From Marinospirillum sp. (GTDB lineage: Bacteria > Pseudomonadota > Gammaproteobacteria > Pseudomonadales > Halomonadaceae), in assembly GCF_014859565.1 (NCBI RefSeq), contig NZ_JACUUA010000197.1, forward strand, positions 1 through 5,873: 5,873 bases of DNA, read 5' to 3'. Shown one piece after another: positions 1 through 5,873 of the stretch. The notes beneath the pieces are model-generated. The model did no database searches. It worked only from the letters and a program-made list of their open reading frames with translations, and was not told where the DNA came from. Position 1 is the stretch's first letter, and every line of letters begins with the position of its first letter. Both the position numbers and the translations under genes were made by a program.

Positions 1-642
1 TTGCAAGGCATGACTGGCCTCACGTATTAGCAGAGAGTAACTGAGTGAGAGTAGCGAATTCACAGGGTCTTTGGGTGGGCGTTTATTGCGACCAGTAAAC
101 GCCCAGCTATCAGCAAAAAAGCTTCTATACCCTTCAAAATAATGACGGGCAGCGCTCCCCTCTATACCCAGGAGTTCTTCGCTTCCTGCTGAATGAAGGC
201 CGGACTGCAAAGCACTAATAGCTTTTCGCTTTTGCTGCACTAACCCCCGGTGTTTGGGCTGCAGCTGCACCAGTTGTTCAAGGTGGCTTGCCTGACTTTT
301 GAGCTTGGCTTCCATAAGCTCGCGTGAAGCCTGTATCCCGGCCTGGGTATCATGGATCAATGCGTACTGTTTGGCCCGGCGCTGGTAGGCCTTATGAGTA
401 AAGTTGATGCACTCGGTCATCATGGATTGGTTGCGAGGGTTAAGCACTGCAACACTGATGTCATGCTGGGCCAACTGATGCAGCAAGTGAATGGGTATAT
501 CGATGTTGGCGATTAGAGTCACCTGCTCCAACAGACGCAAAGGGATACTGGAGGGTTTGCGATCTGGACGATGGATTTTCAGGGCAAGGCCTTCAAGCTC
601 AAGACGCGTGTCTTTGTGGTCAATGATCAAATGCTGGGTCAT
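1..642 (-). CDS. cas1: CRISPR-associated endonuclease Cas1 (partial, C-terminus beyond left edge)
   Basis: Cas1 is the integrase of the Cas1-Cas2 complex that inserts new spacers at the CRISPR leader. I translated the 214 visible codons from the minus strand. The start is ATG at 642, preceded by AAAGAGG with a 6-base gap. Residues 1-80 form the beta-rich N-terminal domain. The catalytic domain shows the family hallmark GIEGSAARHYF (159-169), in which E161 is the expected first metal ligand. It is followed by NKRPPKDPVNSLLS (186-199). The His and Asp/Glu metal ligands of the complete protein (usually about 320-340 residues) would lie past the edge, so an intact active site cannot be confirmed. 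The gene begins 23 bases after cas2. Its own start and binding site rule out an N-terminal reverse transcriptase fusion, as found in some type III Cas1 proteins. Family assignment is secure; subtype is not. Confidence 0.95.
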   Translation of the reverse strand, partial: MTQHLIIDHKDTRLELEGLALKIHRPDRKPSSIPLRLLEQVTLIANIDIPIHLLHQLAQHDISVAVLNPRNQSMMTECINFTHKAYQRRAKQYALIHDTQAGIQASRELMEAKLKSQASHLEQLVQLQPKHRGLVQQKRKAISALQSGLHSAGSEELLGIEGSAARHYFEGYRSFFADSWAFTGRNKRPPKDPVNSLLSLSYSLLIREASHALQ

Positions 643-665: not shown

Positions 666-947
666 TCAGGAAACCAGCACCAGATCCTCATCCAGAGGGG
701 GCTGCGCCTGCCCCAAGTAGATGGGTTCTCGCTGGCTATCGAGGCGAATGCAAAACAGGCTTTCGCTTTGCGGGGTTTGCTGCTGTAGAGCTTGCACTAG
801 AGCCCCCTTCTCTACCCCGGTGAGATAGCACTCAAATGCAGAAAGCTGCTGACCGCTGGCCTGATGACGCAGGTGTTTTCTGGCCTGGCGCTGTAGGCGT
901 GGTATGCCCAGGTCATAGGCCAAAAAATAAAGCCCCCTCTTACTCAT
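666..947 (-). CDS. cas2: CRISPR-associated protein Cas2
   Basis: Cas2 is the small dimeric partner that bridges two Cas1 dimers during spacer integration. The 93-residue product has the ferredoxin-like Cas2 pattern. It opens with a beta strand, LYFLAYD (6-12), where D12 matches the conserved Asp. An Arg-rich helix follows (RLQRQARKHLR, 17-27), then the second hallmark strand SAFECYLT (36-43). Length is normal for the family. I chose ATG 947; a longer reading from a TTG at 974 would add nine residues before the typical Cas2 start and is less likely. The first 8 bases overlap the end of the phosphatase gene, which suggests translational coupling. Cas2 lies upstream of cas1, the reverse of the most common order. 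Confidence 0.93.
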   Translation of the reverse strand: MSKRGLYFLAYDLGIPRLQRQARKHLRHQASGQQLSAFECYLTGVEKGALVQALQQQTPQSESLFCIRLDSQREPIYLGQAQPPLDEDLVLVS

Positions 948-2043
948 GGGTATCCACCAGCCCGCTTGCGGCAAGCGCTATGCTGGCATCATCCCCTGTA
1001 GTGCCGCGTGTGAAGGCGTCCGAGTAAAACAGGCGAGTCAGGGTGCGGCGCTTGAGCTTGCCCTGACGCAAATCATTCAGCCAGCCACTGACTTGTGAGG
1101 ACACTTGAGAGCCGTCATTGGCCACCAGGCGGTCGGCGGCACCATCACTCATGGCGGCAAACCCAGTAAGGTTGTCAGTGGGATGAACACCGACCTGAAC
1201 ATCGCTGGGTTGCAAGTGATCATCAATAAAGGTGGTTTGATTGGCAAATTCACCTTTGCCAACTTCACCGAGGGTCCGCAATTCAGGATGAAGTTGGCCC
1301 TGTTCTTTACGCAGCTGCTCGACCACCAGCGCACCATCCCCAATCTTGACCCACAACAAATGTGCTTTGCCCTGGATTGCGAACAACAGCGTGCAGCGAA
1401 AATCTTTCTGGGGGCGGCGATGCTGGGTTGCCAGGTCATCCAGGATGCCCTTGGCATGTTTAACAAACAGCAAACCCTGGGCACGTGCCGTCTCTTCTGT
1501 GATGGCCTGGGGATCATCCAGCAAACTGCTCAGTTGCTTTTCCAGCGTATTGGCTAAGCGACCCAGGCCGGTGACAACCGCTTGAGAACCAATCTCCGAG
1601 ACTGCCGAGCTGCCCGCACCATCGGCAACCATGACCCAGGGTCGCGGGCTGGCTGCGGCAATAGCAGCATCCTGACAGGGCAAGGGTGGCCTGGCGTCCC
1701 GGTGGGATAACCCTGCCACTGCCTCATATAGGGCTTCCCACTTTTGATTGGGCAGAAAAAACTCTGGGACCGGTTCTTCTTCTACAGCCGTCTGGTCTGA
1801 CTGATCCAGCACTTCAGGGTTTTCTTTGGCGGTGTTTGTTGTGTTTTTTTCTTGGTTATCTTCTGTGGGAGCATCGCTATCTGAAACCTCCTCAGGCATT
1901 TTATGAACCTCAGCTTTTGGTTCTTGGGCCAAGGCTTCAGGTGCAGTTGGTTGTTGCATGGGCATGGACGTTTCCTCTGGAGCGGCTTCAGGGTGTTTTG
2001 GTTTTTTATTGCGCTTGAGTGTGAGTCTGGGCAATCTGGGCAT
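940..2043 (-). CDS. PP2C-family serine/threonine phosphatase with long disordered N-terminus
   Basis: This is a metal-dependent (PPM/PP2C) protein phosphatase of 367 residues, expected to remove phosphate from Ser/Thr, most likely on substrates of the adjacent kinase. The catalytic domain spans about residues 100-360 and keeps the metal-site landmarks: CQDA (123-126), VADGAGSS (139-146, with D141), KIGDGALV (233-240), MSDGA (298-302, with D300) and GDDASIALA (350-358). Residues 1-95 are Pro/Glu/Lys/Thr-rich and look disordered; the stretch after about residue 40 is mostly acidic. No membrane segment is visible. The ATG at 2043 has AGGAG with a 6-base gap. The gene starts 20 bases after the kinase and overlaps cas2 by 8 bases. 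The kinase, vWA and PP2C set corresponds to the TerY-P triad. Its target and its role in CRISPR immunity are unknown. Confidence 0.9.
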   Translation of the reverse strand: MPRLPRLTLKRNKKPKHPEAAPEETSMPMQQPTAPEALAQEPKAEVHKMPEEVSDSDAPTEDNQEKNTTNTAKENPEVLDQSDQTAVEEEPVPEFFLPNQKWEALYEAVAGLSHRDARPPLPCQDAAIAAASPRPWVMVADGAGSSAVSEIGSQAVVTGLGRLANTLEKQLSSLLDDPQAITEETARAQGLLFVKHAKGILDDLATQHRRPQKDFRCTLLFAIQGKAHLLWVKIGDGALVVEQLRKEQGQLHPELRTLGEVGKGEFANQTTFIDDHLQPSDVQVGVHPTDNLTGFAAMSDGAADRLVANDGSQVSSQVSGWLNDLRQGKLKRRTLTRLFYSDAFTRGTTGDDASIALAASGLVDTHE

Positions 2044-2063
2044 GGTGTGCTCCTGAGCAGTTT

Positions 2064-3059
2064 TTAACTGTGAGTTGCGGACTGGCTGTTGCCACGATAA
2101 GTGTTTGATTTGGGGGCAGAAGGCCGGATGGCTGTTTCATGCCAGCCCTTGTCCATTTCCTTGCGGTATCGCCGCAAAGCCTCCAGCCACTCCACTGGGG
2201 TTGCGCGTTTGCTGGGGTCATCGGCACCCTCGGTAAAGGTCTGAATGAACAGGCTTTTCAGGCGGTGCGGCATGTGGCTCCAGATGTTGTACCAGTCGCC
2301 CTTGGGAATTCCCTTGTTGCCAATCCCATAAGCAAAATTGCCCCGCTTCAGGTTGGTCACCGGATCTTCACCACCCACTATGTCATAGGGATGGCGGCCC
2401 AGTACCAAGCATTTGAAGAAGATAATGGCCAGAGAAAAGGCTTCGCTTTCAGGTGTGCGCACCAAGGAGGAAAACGACTTTCCCTGGTGCTCCTTGGGGG
2501 TCAGATCGGCGCTGCCCACAGGATTGGGGTAATGCTGGCCATTAACCTGAATCTGATAGCTGTCGCAGTCAATCAAGGTCACCTCATCACTTCCTGGATC
2601 ACAAAGGATGTTATGGAGGTTGTAATCCCCGACCATCACGCCTTGACTGTGCAAAACCCGCAGGTGCTGAACCAGCTGAATCAGATAGTCCACCAAGCCA
2701 CGCCGATCTAAGCCTGGAAAGTGCTTTTTGTAAAGCAGTGCATGAGCTAGATAAAACATGGGCTTGCCCTGTGCACGATACATGGCATAGCCGATCCAGC
2801 GCTGGTTGGCGTCATAAGCACTGATCAAGGGCCAACTCACACCTTTCTGCTGTCGGAGTTGACTTACTGCACGCATGGCTTCCACCTTTTTTTCCAGCTC
2901 AGCGCCGCGCTTTTGCAACTGCTCGGGATGATACAGCTTCACCAGCACGTCCTTGCGGTTAGCCAGGGGGTAAACCTCCCCCTCGCCTCCTTTGGCAAGC
3001 AGCTCACCCAGGTGTTGTTCCTGGTGGTTCACATCAAAAACATGGCGTTGGCTGGTCAT
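2064..3059 (-). CDS. Protein kinase of the TerY-P triad type (COG4248-like)
   Basis: This is a 331-residue Ser/Thr-type protein kinase fold. Visible motifs from ATG 3059 are a glycine loop KGGEGEVY (23-30), the phosphate-binding Lys in VLVKLY (K41), a catalytic loop VGDYNLHNIL (143-152, with D145 and N150) and a metal-binding segment LIDCDSY (162-168, with D164) in place of DFG. Then come PKEHQG (188-193) at the APE position and GRHPYD (221-226) in the C-lobe. DCD for DFG and the IDxDS pattern resemble the COG4248 kinases found beside vWA and PP2C genes. The C-terminal 30 residues are Ser/Thr/Lys-rich; no zinc ribbon, helix-hairpin-helix or membrane segment is visible. I preferred ATG 3059, with GAGG 5 bases upstream, over an in-frame TTG at 3083. 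The catalytic residues look intact, so activity is plausible; the substrate is unknown. Confidence 0.88.
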   Translation of the reverse strand: MTSQRHVFDVNHQEQHLGELLAKGGEGEVYPLANRKDVLVKLYHPEQLQKRGAELEKKVEAMRAVSQLRQQKGVSWPLISAYDANQRWIGYAMYRAQGKPMFYLAHALLYKKHFPGLDRRGLVDYLIQLVQHLRVLHSQGVMVGDYNLHNILCDPGSDEVTLIDCDSYQIQVNGQHYPNPVGSADLTPKEHQGKSFSSLVRTPESEAFSLAIIFFKCLVLGRHPYDIVGGEDPVTNLKRGNFAYGIGNKGIPKGDWYNIWSHMPHRLKSLFIQTFTEGADDPSKRATPVEWLEALRRYRKEMDKGWHETAIRPSAPKSNTYRGNSQSATHS

Positions 3060-3113
3060 GGGCACCTCGACTGAGTGGGTCAAAAAATTAGAGAAAATTC
3101 ACTGCTTGTAAAG

Positions 3114-3127
3114 TGGCCGTCCCTGGC
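3114..3127. repeat. Short intergenic repeat, copy 1 (14 bases)
   Basis: TGGCCGTCCCTGGC is found here, 27 bases past the vWA stop codon, and again at 4791-4804. With the next bases, GGCC recurs 6 bases later, allowing a small 4-base-pair hairpin. It may belong to a short genome-wide repeat family or be a weak 3'-end structure. There is no following T-run on either strand, so it does not look like an intrinsic terminator. Confidence 0.4.
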
Positions 3128-3153
3128 CTGCCTGTTGTCCTAACTCTTTGCGC

Positions 3154-3912
3154 CTAGATGCTGGCCCAACCATCCATGGGCGGCAGATCCACACTGGCGG
3201 TGGTCGAAGCAGAGTTGGAGACCCGGCTCATGCTGGCCGAAAGCCACTCAAAAAACTCACCGAACTTCAGCCCGTCCAGTTTGATGGCTGGTCGATGAGA
3301 AAACTCACCCAGGGTCTGTAGCTCTGCCCCTTCTACGCCGACCACCAAAGACACCAGCTTGCGGTTGGAAGAAAGCTGCTTGGCCTTGGCCGCTGCTGAC
3401 TGCCAGCTGTCGTTGGGGGCACCGTCGCTGATCACCACCAGCCAGGGCTGAAAATAGGCGACCCCGGCACTGCGGTACTGAGCTTTGCGCTCTTCCAGCT
3501 TCTTGAGTGCCAGATCGACAGCACCCCCTAGTGGAGTCATACCCCCGGCACTGAAAGAGTTGCAGTGGTCGATGTCCATTGCCGCTGTAAAAGGCAGCTG
3601 CTCGTCAATGCGGCCACCTGCGGTGATGACCCCCACTTCCACTGAGCAGGACGCGACTTCGTCGTCGTTCAGTGCTTGCAGAAAGTGCTGAAACCCGGCA
3701 TTCAACTGCTGAATCGGTGCTCCGCCCATAGAGGCCGAGGTATCCAGCACCACCATGCAGGGGCAGCGGGGTGAAGGGTTTTCGATCAGGTCGTTGCTGG
3801 TTGCGAGTTCGTAGCGGCTCATGGTGTCACCTCTCTGTGTGGATGCTGAAGACTGGCTGGTTGCCGTAACTGACTGGCTAAGGGTTTGTGCCAGTTGGCT
3901 GAAAAAGCTCAT
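3154..3912 (-). CDS. TerY-like von Willebrand factor A (vWA) domain protein
   Basis: vWA domains bind metal through a MIDAS site and mediate protein-protein contacts. The 252-residue product carries all three MIDAS elements: DTSAS (57-61), T126 in MTPLGG (125-130), and D163 in ISDGAPND (161-168). The run from ENPSPRCPC (44-52) through the C-terminus resembles the cytoplasmic TerY-type vWA proteins, with no signal peptide. Two starts are possible. ATG 3912 has GGAG with an 8-base gap. ATG 3822, at residue 31, has a stronger GAGAGG with a 7-base gap, and fits the usual TerY start better. The extra 30 residues are Ser/Gln/Thr-rich and lie outside the domain. The gene is followed by the kinase after 94 bases. 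It probably acts as the scaffold or sensor of the kinase-phosphatase pair, as inferred for TerY-P triads. Confidence 0.9.
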   Translation of the reverse strand: MSFFSQLAQTLSQSVTATSQSSASTQRGDTMSRYELATSNDLIENPSPRCPCMVVLDTSASMGGAPIQQLNAGFQHFLQALNDDEVASCSVEVGVITAGGRIDEQLPFTAAMDIDHCNSFSAGGMTPLGGAVDLALKKLEERKAQYRSAGVAYFQPWLVVISDGAPNDSWQSAAAKAKQLSSNRKLVSLVVGVEGAELQTLGEFSHRPAIKLDGLKFGEFFEWLSASMSRVSNSASTTASVDLPPMDGWASI

Positions 3913-3956: not shown

Positions 3957-4688
3957 TTAGTCTTCAAACAGTGACCAAAGGCCGTAGGCAACGGCACCTG
4001 CTGCGACACCGACAGCCAGCCCTACGGGACCGCCCAGGCTGCCACCCGCTGCTGCACTCTTGCCTGCGAATGCGGCGAATCCAGCGGTTGATGCCATTGA
4101 GGAAACCCCTGCTGAAGTCAAGGCACTGGCCCCAGTTCCAGCCAGAGCGCTGGTCCCTGCATGCAGTGCCGTTTTGGATGCGGCCTGGCCAACAAAGGAA
4201 GCCGTCGCTCGTTTACCACCTTCATTGAGAAGGCTCTTGCTGGCCTGGGTGATCAGAGCTTCCGCTGTTTTCTTGCTGGCATAGGTGCGAGCGATATTTA
4301 CACCCGCAAAAGTGCCTGCTGTTGTAGCTCCTGCAGCTGCACGATTGACCTGACCACTGCGTTTCTTCCCGGTAATGCACCAGGTTGCAAAGTGCTCGCA
4401 GTTGTTGAAAATCAGGTTGTAATCCTTTTTGCCCAGCTGACTATAAGCACGACGGACAACCTCTTCGTCGGAGTAGCGAGCATTGGTATGCAACACAGCC
4501 GTGGGCTTTTTGCAGTTACCCCTGAAAGCAACCAGTGTGGTTTTTTCAATCTGGCCAGTCGCCTTGGAGGCAAGTCCATTTGCTGACCCTGAAAAATGAA
4601 TAACCTGATCCTTCCCAACATAGATACCGTGGTGGGTATAACCGAAACGGGTCACTTTGATATGGGTGCCTGGGGTCAAATTGCTCAT
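3957..4688 (-). CDS. LRAT/NlpC-P60-like cysteine acyltransferase-fold protein with Ala/Gly-rich C-terminus
   Basis: This 243-residue protein has an N-terminal domain (about 1-110) with the permuted papain-like layout of the LRAT family, whose members transfer or cleave acyl groups on lipids. Supporting residues are H19 in THHGIYVG (18-25), H31 in VIHFSG (29-34), and the nucleophile candidate C97 in NNCEHFATWC (95-104). Residues 117-240 are strikingly rich in Ala, Gly, Ser and Thr. The last part (about 213-241) is a hydrophobic, glycine-zipper-like stretch that could enter or perturb a membrane. No signal peptide is seen, so the catalytic part is probably cytoplasmic. ATG 4688 has GAGG with a 9-base gap. 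It sits upstream of the vWA gene by 44 bases and downstream of a 127-base intergenic region. I infer a lipid- or membrane-directed effector; the substrate cannot be read from the sequence. Confidence 0.8.
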   Translation of the reverse strand: MSNLTPGTHIKVTRFGYTHHGIYVGKDQVIHFSGSANGLASKATGQIEKTTLVAFRGNCKKPTAVLHTNARYSDEEVVRRAYSQLGKKDYNLIFNNCEHFATWCITGKKRSGQVNRAAAGATTAGTFAGVNIARTYASKKTAEALITQASKSLLNEGGKRATASFVGQAASKTALHAGTSALAGTGASALTSAGVSSMASTAGFAAFAGKSAAAGGSLGGPVGLAVGVAAGAVAYGLWSLFED

Positions 4689-4815: not shown

Positions 4816-5085
4816 TTAACGACCATCCAGAACCTTCTGGAAAAACTCCATCACCTTGCTTTCAGCTCCCCAGGCGTGACGAACATCCTGCTCATCCAGA
4901 ATACGGCAGTGGCCAGTGACCGAGTTGCGTTGTACCCTCCAGCCATCGCATTGCGCCAGGTTGTTCCACCAGAGCTCTCCACCCATGGTGGGAGTCTTGA
5001 TGTTGGGCAGCAGGCCAATCCGCTCAATCAAATCAGGCGAAGAAACCAAAATACCGAGGGCGACCTTGAGTGCTTGGTTGTTCAT
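4816..5085 (-). CDS. Small conserved-looking protein of unknown function (89 residues)
   Basis: I do not recognise this family. It is probably a real gene: ATG 5085 follows AGAGGA with a proper gap, it is co-oriented with its neighbours, and its composition is that of a folded soluble protein. Residues 1-27 look helical. The central part (31-64) holds tightly spaced residues of a kind often conserved: TPTMGG (31-36), two Trp (39-40), GWR (48-50), QRN (52-54) and TGHCRILD (57-64). A final helix ends at about residue 87. There is no signal peptide, membrane segment or zinc-finger cysteine pattern; Cys46 and Cys60 are the only cysteines. It stands between csx16 (94 bases upstream) and the LRAT-like gene (127 bases downstream). 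It could be an adaptor or regulator of the triad, or an antitoxin-like partner of the LRAT-like protein; neither is shown. Confidence 0.7.
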   Translation of the reverse strand: MNNQALKVALGILVSSPDLIERIGLLPNIKTPTMGGELWWNNLAQCDGWRVQRNSVTGHCRILDEQDVRHAWGAESKVMEFFQKVLDGR

Positions 5086-5179: not shown

Positions 5180-5473
5180 CTAATCCCAGGGTAGTAATAG
5201 AAAGCGCTGCAACTGAACATTGCACTCTTGCATTTGCGCATAACTCAACTCTTGCCCACGCAAGCTGTGTGGCACATCCATAGATAGGTGCCAGTATTCA
5301 GCACGACGTGAACAAACCTCGGCAGCCAGGTGGATTGGCAAGGTGCCAATCACCCGGTCCCCAGCGGTTACCTGCTCTGGAATTAGGTGGGGTACTTGCT
5401 CATCGACAAGGAAATCTTGAGCAGCAAGCCACTCTAATGCGCCGGGATGGCGACTAACGAACCAGGTTTTCAT
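5180..5473 (-). CDS. csx16: CRISPR-associated protein Csx16 (VVA1548 family)
   Basis: The 97-residue product matches Csx16. The opening MKTWFVSRHPGALEWL is the family signature, followed by VIGTLPIHLAAEVCSR (42-57) and a C-terminal SLRGQELS segment (70-77). Csx16 is a small Rossmann-like protein confined to type III CRISPR loci and predicted to be a ring nuclease, one that degrades cyclic oligoadenylate and so switches off the Cas10 signal. Length is typical of the family and no truncation is seen. ATG 5473 has GGAGG with a 7-base gap. It is the first gene of the leftward run and diverges from a CARF-domain gene, a pairing consistent with a shared second messenger. Family assignment is strong; enzymatic activity is predicted rather than read from the sequence. 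Confidence 0.92.
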   Translation of the reverse strand: MKTWFVSRHPGALEWLAAQDFLVDEQVPHLIPEQVTAGDRVIGTLPIHLAAEVCSRRAEYWHLSMDVPHSLRGQELSYAQMQECNVQLQRFLLLPWD

Positions 5474-5643: not shown

Positions 5644-5873
5644 ATGCACCCCGATCAAACTCTTCTGCTCGCAATTACGGGCATGTCCCCTGCTGTCGTT
5701 ACTGAAACCCTGTATGCAATGGATCGCAAGGGGCAGCAATGGCCAAGTGCTATCAAGATCATCACCACCTCAGTGGGCAAGAAAAAAGCCTGCGAAGGCT
5801 TATTGGAGGAAGGGTATTTGAATGCGCTTTGTGCCGAACTAGTTAGTGCCCATCCAGAAACACGTATTTTCAT
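5644..5873 (+). CDS. csm6: CARF-domain CRISPR ancillary protein, NE0113/Csm6-like (partial, C-terminus beyond right edge)
   Basis: The reading frame is open from ATG 5644 to the window end, giving 76 complete codons. The start has AAGGAG with a 6-base gap. Residues 7-24 (LLLAITGMSPAVVTETLY) match the N-terminal strand, loop and helix of the NE0113-type CARF family, which current databases name a Csm6-type CRISPR ring nuclease. WPSAIKIITTSVG (34-46) then gives the second strand and the TT-G loop of the ligand pocket. CARF domains bind cyclic oligoadenylate made by Cas10 and control an attached effector such as a HEPN RNase, or cleave the ring themselves. The C-terminal half is not visible, so I cannot say whether an effector domain is present; the symbol is therefore provisional. 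Its divergence from csx16 supports a type III locus. Confidence 0.8.
   Translation, partial: MHPDQTLLLAITGMSPAVVTETLYAMDRKGQQWPSAIKIITTSVGKKKACEGLLEEGYLNALCAELVSAHPETRIF

Follow-up and report, generated by a model that had tools for sequence, protein, structure and literature searches.

Adjacent genes for a vWA protein, a protein kinase and a PP2C phosphatase are already familiar from bacterial defense. In the accessible part of PMC11090510, such TerY-P triads occur in CoCoNuT systems, and stand-alone ones with OB-fold kinases are cited. The available text of PMC7699616 and PMC10889362 reports phage protection by TerY-P sets, that of PMC7159879 points out that kinase, PP2C and vWA genes also occur in a further conflict system, and that of PMC10910872 mentions vWA-related systems with a kinase and a phosphatase near CRISPR loci (UAS-7 and others). 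The type III signal cyclic tetra-adenylate (cA4) is degraded by Csx16, according to the accessible part of PMC12409355. Here we analyze a vWA-kinase-PP2C triad in a 5,873-nt stretch of a Marinospirillum sp. (contig NZ_JACUUA010000197.1; "the window"), where it lies among type III CRISPR genes.

The triad is a variant of the TerY-P kind that is tied to type III CRISPR, and it is real, recurrent and rare. We propose that it is an accessory signalling or effector module of a type III CRISPR system, a reading to which we give a probability of roughly 45%. What can be observed directly in its favor is the gene content, the intact motifs, the operon-like junctions, the recurrence beside type III genes, and the position of the triad in a slot that is elsewhere occupied by CARF/SAVED genes.

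The triad and its operon

The first-pass annotation of this DNA had described three adjacent genes with intact vWA, kinase and PP2C motifs, and it was right in coordinates, order and motifs. The vWA protein carries all the motifs of a metal ion-dependent adhesion site (MIDAS), with DTSAS at residue 57, MTP at 125 and SDG at 162. The kinase has VLVK at residue 38, GDYNLHN at 144 and IDCDS at 163, and its D145, N150 and D164 are invariant in an alignment of eight sequences (A1). The phosphatase has CQD at 123, ADGAGS at 140, SDGAAD at 299 and DDAS at 351, in addition to an N-terminal extension (~100 residues) that reads as Pro/Glu/Gln-rich. The motif patterns used for the three proteins are those that we take, from general knowledge, to characterize these families.

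The triad resembles the TerY-P sets in the available text of PMC11090510 and PMC7699616 in its three domains, intact motifs, adjacent genes and association with defense. It differs in its vWA-kinase-PP2C order, in lying inside a type III CRISPR operon, and in that neither the vWA protein nor the PP2C has a PADLOC match. Moreover, the TerY-P kinases described in the accessible part of PMC11090510 carry a C-terminal zinc ribbon (CoCoNuT) or an OB-fold (stand-alone), whereas no such match was found in the 331-residue kinase of the window. In its longest form, which starts from a TTG at 3083 instead of the ATG at 3059 and has 339 residues, Pkinase spans residues 29-300 and there is no further Pfam match (the last ~30 residues were compared with sequence libraries only). 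The name "TerY-P-like", given at first pass, therefore fits the three-domain make-up and not the kinase architecture.

With the vWA-related systems of PMC10910872 the triad shares both the domain combination and the CRISPR neighborhood, in a comparison that extends to one sentence of that paper. As to whether the arrangement had been described before, that sentence answers for the kind of system, and our kinase subfamily may be among those meant. The kind is already known. Our addition consists of the kinase subfamily, the junctions that it forms time and again with cas2, CARF5, cas10 and Csx16-Card1 genes, and a PLAAT-like neighbor, all of which may already be listed in supplements.

The operon occupies the minus strand between 5473 and 1, and its genes are, in reading order, csx16, ORF89, the LRAT/PLAAT-like gene, vWA, kinase, PP2C, cas2 and cas1 (Table 1). 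The placement of the triad between csx16 and cas2-cas1 on one strand holds as first described, with the addition that the LRAT/PLAAT-like gene and ORF89 lie between csx16 and vWA. From csx16 to PP2C the intergenic gaps are, in order, 94, 127, 44, 94 and 20 nt; cas2 starts at the ATG at 947 and overlaps the end of PP2C (940) by 8 nt, and 23 nt separate cas2 from cas1. A CARF5/NE0113 gene starts next to csx16 in divergent orientation. Its fragment matches PADLOC CARF5--CARF (2.4e-21) and NCBIfam TIGR02584 (3.8e-14), the latter at 53.2 bits, short of the cut-off (80.65), since the window edge truncates the gene.

The type III hallmarks present in the window are csx16, the CARF gene and cas1-cas2. 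No cas10 or RAMP genes fall within its 5,873 bases, while three of the related loci discussed below (L002, L003 and L102) do have them. Searches of the window for tandem repeats, Rfam families and CRISPR-like repeats found none; promoter-like sites (1 vs. a shuffle mean of 3.5) and terminator-like sites (5 vs. 7.4) are both below the means of shuffled sequences, and the window DNA has no match among plasmids.

Table 1. Genes of the 5,873-nt window.
Feature	Position	Strand	Basis and remarks
cas1	1..642	-	PF01867 1.8e-41; first 214 residues, truncated by window edge
cas2	666..947	-	PF09827 2.3e-05; TIGR01573 8.6e-07
PP2C phosphatase	940..2043	-	PF13672 (PP2C_2) 8.8e-32, residues 120-310
Ser/Thr kinase, 331 aa	2064..3059	-	PF00069 1.5e-08
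vWA, complete MIDAS	3154..3912	-	PF00092 2.3e-11 and motifs
LRAT/PLAAT-like gene, Ala/Gly-rich tail, candidate effector	3957..4688	-	PF04970 3.5e-27
ORF89, small protein	4816..5085	-	confident structure model, weak fold matches
csx16, ring nuclease family	5180..5473	-	PF09652 1.1e-32; PADLOC Csx16 3e-35
CARF5 / NE0113 (annotated Csm6-like)	5644..5873	+	first 76 residues, truncated by window edge

Recurrence beside type III genes

Relatives were retrieved by kinase sequence only, and there are 462 of them at E <=1e-40. A scan of genome contigs gave seven loci (L001-L007), and we call a relative close if it matches the A1 profile at E <=1e-60 or comes from that initial scan. Surveys of genome samples, which overlap and include their own centers, found the kinase in 8/369 genomes at 1e-30 (1 close), 1/201, 1/62, 2/150 and 19/201, and in further samples in 2/390, 2/125, 2/50 and 1/47. 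Nearby cas genes were identified with references that are mainly type III and Cas1 proteins, and other cas genes could escape them. The triad is not peculiar to this genome, since it recurs beside type III genes in several lineages: eight of the 27 loci of the kinase subfamily are CRISPR-linked, window counted, and so are five of the seven loci of the initial scan. The first-pass suggestion that phosphorylation is part of the CRISPR system stands to this extent, as a recurrent operon-like association; against an exclusive role in CRISPR speak the 19 of 27 loci that lack a cas match.

L001 (a metagenome-assembled genome (MAG) of Marinospirillum) and L005 (a Pseudomonadaceae MAG, in which the triad begins within the kinase), which are closely related to one another, have the triad followed by cas2 and cas1. 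In L002, a gammaproteobacterial MAG, the triad is accompanied by CARF5, by a protein of 910 aa that contains a Csx16 domain, and by divergent cas10, cmr3 and RAMP genes, as well as a weak cas6 match under the Pfam cut-off. In L003, from the complete genome of Methylomicrobium sp. wino1, it adjoins cas1, cas10, cmr4 and cmr1 genes and an array, and in L004 (a Thiotrichales MAG) it is found with CARF5. L040 combines the triad with a Csx16-Card1 fusion, a reverse transcriptase (RT)-Cas1 fusion and a repeat in 31 copies. In L102 the kinase is followed by a vWA and a PP2C that share one reading frame, and then by cas10, cmr3 and RAMP. The GGDD motif of Cas10 is retained in L002 and L102. In the three genomes for which the distance was computed (G003, G655 and G005) the kinase lies 2.5-6.0 kb from the nearest cas1, for which the chance with a random gene is roughly 0.5-0.6% each.

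Among more distant triads, one on a Photobacterium toruni plasmid (L070, in the order vWA-PP2C-kinase) lies ~11 kb from CARF5 and cas1-cas2, and L062 adjoins a cas1; L058, L063, L064 and L071 have no cas match. CARF5 genes are found with the triad in four places: the window, L002, L004 and, 11 kb off, L070. A query with the cas2 of the window against ten loci found cas2 in L001 (48%) and L005 (51%), and not in L002, L003, L004, L006, L007, L040, L070 or L102; this query misses diverged copies, because L070 has an annotated cas2 and yet gave no match. In viral contigs a single-sequence kinase query found no relative and an alignment query two matches at 25%, and one of 50,697 phage records has a partial match at 35%.

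Some features of these loci are worth recording in their own right. The L040 fusion (L040:12404-14341) joins a Csx16 domain to a Card1-like CARF and nuclease, and thereby likely unites an effector with its off-switch in a single chain. Downstream of triad and CARF5, the proteins at L002:16389-19121 (910 aa) and L004:4148-6982 (944 aa) are related at 30% identity; the Csx16 domain of the former is N-terminal, and both have weak TPR matches. Two GTPase genes precede the CARF5/csm6 gene and cas1-cas2 of L070 (L070:24633-29868). In L001 the cas1 region (L001:9832-10228) has only short frames of 61 and 86 aa, vs. a 321-aa cas1 in L005. A 680-aa protein of L003 (15128-17170) looks CHAT-like by eye; searches of Pfam, PADLOC and PDB sequences gave no match for it, and we do not claim it as such.

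The gene immediately downstream of PP2C is cas2, CARF5, cas10 or Csx16-Card1 in seven of the eight linked loci. Besides the overlap with cas2 in the window, the cas2 of L005 follows after 2 nt if it starts at a GTG, and the cas2 match of L001 starts 45 nt on. CARF5 follows after 4 nt in L002 (by the longest open reading frame (ORF); later ATGs exist) and after 36 nt in L004, the longest ORFs of PP2C and cas10 overlap by 20 nt in L102, and 116-137 nt separate PP2C from Csx16-Card1 in L040. That the downstream partner changes, always among CRISPR genes, points to a link with the interference or signalling side rather than with Cas1-Cas2 alone.

This bears on spacer acquisition, whose control had been among the roles first suggested. 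A triad that phosphorylates Cas1-Cas2, or that controls acquisition otherwise, would suit the PP2C genes that overlap cas2 (window) or directly precede it (L005, L001), and the distant triad next to a cas1 in L062. We consider such a role quite improbable, because neither cas1 nor cas2 was matched in the stretches that hold the triads of L102 (joined to cas10) and of L002 and L004 (joined to CARF5). G002 and G004 have their cas1 matches on separate contigs, though fragmented assemblies could account for this as well. And the PP2C-cas2 adjacency may simply follow from the slot, because csx16 upstream of cas1 is common without any triad.

The csx16-to-cas2 slot and the case for an independent module

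As a control, we looked at csx16 places in 369 genomes of the class of G003, which gave 24 places in 22 genomes, five of them on contigs of only 4.6-7.6 kb. Both csx16 and cas1 were found in 15 of these triad-free neighborhoods, and in 14 of them cas1 follows csx16 on the same strand. Ten slot proteins from eight loci were hand-picked for scanning, and nine of them, from seven loci, match CARF/SAVED families: CARF4-PDDEXK, as in Card1/Can2 (L074, L075, L079), CARF8 with transmembrane (TM) segments (L074, L079, L084), CARF2-HEPN (L080), a two-TM CARF/SAVED protein (L083) and CARF5-ADA (L086). The tenth, in L090, has no such match. Since the slot holds mostly CARF/SAVED proteins in the comparators scanned, the triad, the LRAT/PLAAT-like protein and ORF89 of the window occupy the place of proteins that likely bind cyclic oligoadenylate.

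Several observations weigh against our reading. None of the 24 csx16 neighborhoods has a match to the triad genes, so the triad is a rare accessory. The company of CARF5 and triad is not specific, because CARF5-like genes also occur in six of the 24 triad-free csx16 places; in one of these (L082) the gene is divergent from csx16, just as in the window. Unlike the usual occupants of the slot, none of the vWA, kinase, PP2C, LRAT and ORF89 proteins has a CARF or SAVED match in Pfam or PADLOC, libraries that a remote domain may escape, and the link from the triad to cyclic oligoadenylate is therefore unproven. Relatives of LRAT and ORF89 were not found in the other triad loci examined, and four LRAT relatives on plasmids are in other settings. 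In L003 there is no type III or cas2 gene right after PP2C, and its Cas10 (L003:1191-4103) best matches III-C models, with the HD motif present and GG[DE][DE] absent. CARF5 was not seen at that locus nor csx16 anywhere in the genome; together with the missing GG[DE][DE] motif, this makes a cyclic-oligoadenylate signal unlikely there. Finally, counted singly, the loci without a nearby cas match are the majority (19/27). Of these, 17 come from a single clade, so that outside it eight of ten loci are CRISPR-linked, or seven of nine minus the window, or six of eight with L001 and L005 as one.

These cas-free loci raise the question of whether the triad is instead an anti-phage module of the TerY-P type in its own right, one that senses infection by itself, is merely transcribed together with the CRISPR genes, and shares with them only the operon and the defense island. 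Triads with close kinases and no cas match are found in L006, L007 and the 17 genomes of the one clade (within 15-20 kb around); the TerY-P sets described in the accessible literature work alone; and the Cas10 of L003 lacks a cyclase motif. Yet mere co-residence fits poorly with a type III or cas2 gene right after PP2C in seven of eight linked loci, the frames often overlapping or abutting. Nor do the scanned neighbors of the cas-free sites resemble defense islands; they look like housekeeping. Those of L006 and L007 are ordinary genes, and the loci of the 17-genome clade, whose cas1 matches are on other contigs or absent, have neighbors in common, namely genes for an aminotransferase, a short-chain dehydrogenase and a DUF349 protein (14/17 loci for each cluster, with names taken from two representatives). 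We regard an independent module as possible, on balance doubtful.

The kinase tree is informative about how the association arose. Its 32 rows include the distant L058, L062, L063, L064, L070 and L071 and omit L059, L060, L061 and L102. CRISPR linkage changes four times on the tree vs. 8.0 times in shuffles, none of 500 shuffles being as low, a statistic that is helped by the near-copies of the 17-genome clade in a tree with several long branches. CRISPR-linked rows are spread over more than one clade. In the simplest reading, the module is older than its association with CRISPR, and type III loci recruited it and then kept or lost it.

A candidate effector and a possible second signalling layer

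If the triad is an accessory module of type III CRISPR, the gene just upstream of it is a candidate for its effector. The LRAT-type domain covers residues ~1-115 of that protein, and the remainder is an Ala/Gly-rich tail. Among PDB sequences it matches human HRASLS2 (4dpz, 1.1e-07), and the confidently modelled N-terminal part of its predicted structure matches the human PLAAT3 domain in a Foldseek search (1.1e-06). The mean predicted local distance difference test (pLDDT) of the whole model is 59.9, the tail being of low confidence; of the tail segments computed, the final ones are the most hydrophobic. H19, H20, H31 and C97 are invariant across 23 sequences, and we take the conserved His, His and Cys to be the catalytic H, H and C of PLAAT enzymes. 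By fold and by these residues the protein is a member of the PLAAT/LRAT family, with a predicted enzymatic activity. It shares the N-terminal fold and the conserved His and Cys with the PLAAT/HRASLS phospholipase-acyltransferases, and differs in being bacterial and in its C-terminal tail. That it would be the effector of the triad we infer from gene adjacency.

A relative with 95% identity exists. One of the plasmid relatives, on a Moraxella osloensis plasmid (L097, 4977-6658), is immediately 5′ of a viperin-family antiviral gene, and another is upstream of AAA and PIN-domain genes. In L040 (8580-9440) and L102 (10555-11415), related proteins with a Gly/Ala-rich tail directly precede the kinase, with 67% identity over 110 residues and 55% over 89 residues of the tail (the L102 matches span more than one frame), and they are a candidate effector family of their triad branch. 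An alignment of the LRAT protein with the L040 protein, as a shared upstream effector, was unconvincing (E 0.006 in a single comparison of low complexity). ORF89 belongs to a narrow family of seven database matches, its own included, with the conserved stretch GWRVQ.N..TGHCRILD; its model has a mean pLDDT of 84.9 and weak fold matches, some of them to RNase-type toxins.

How might such a module work? A Cas10 complex, encoded beyond the window, would recognize phage RNA and make cyclic oligoadenylate, which the divergent CARF5 protein would read and Csx16 would destroy. The vWA, kinase and PP2C would form a reversible phosphorylation switch, turned on in the signalling state, in which the kinase acts, the vWA protein may serve as a metal-dependent scaffold, and PP2C would reset. 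The switch would release or activate an effector encoded nearby; in the window the PLAAT-like enzyme is the likeliest one, and it would attack phospholipids so that the infected cell is halted. Phosphorylation would in this way be a second signalling layer in a branch of type III CRISPR, leading from Cas10 recognition to the kinase and to a phosphorylated, membrane-anchored PLAAT-like phospholipase (or a partner of it), while PP2C and Csx16 would each act independently to switch the response off. We offer this full scheme tentatively and would not expect all of it to be right, every causal step in it being our inference: that the signal reaches the kinase, that the kinase acts on the effector, that the effector sits at the membrane and that it attacks lipids.

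The same genes could also be wired in the opposite sense, as a brake. The phosphatase/kinase pair would then silence CARF5, Card1 or LRAT in healthy cells, or restore growth after clearance, comparable to what Csx16 does. PP2C enzymes are by family resetting enzymes, and csx16, itself an off-switch gene, keeps company with the triad in three loci (the window, L002 and L040). Nothing in the data indicates the direction of the effect, and no Csx16 domain is seen in L003, in L004 (a short contig) or in the 20-kb stretch of L102, so we find a brake unlikely.

The recurrence of related triads beside other type III CRISPR systems hints at a possible role of protein phosphorylation in this form of bacterial immunity. 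If the triad acts downstream of Cas10, then type III CRISPR would signal via a kinase/phosphatase pair besides cyclic nucleotides. Two languages of bacterial defense that are now studied separately would be connected, and a small and concrete set of genes (kinase, PP2C, vWA and PLAAT-like enzyme) would be at hand for testing.

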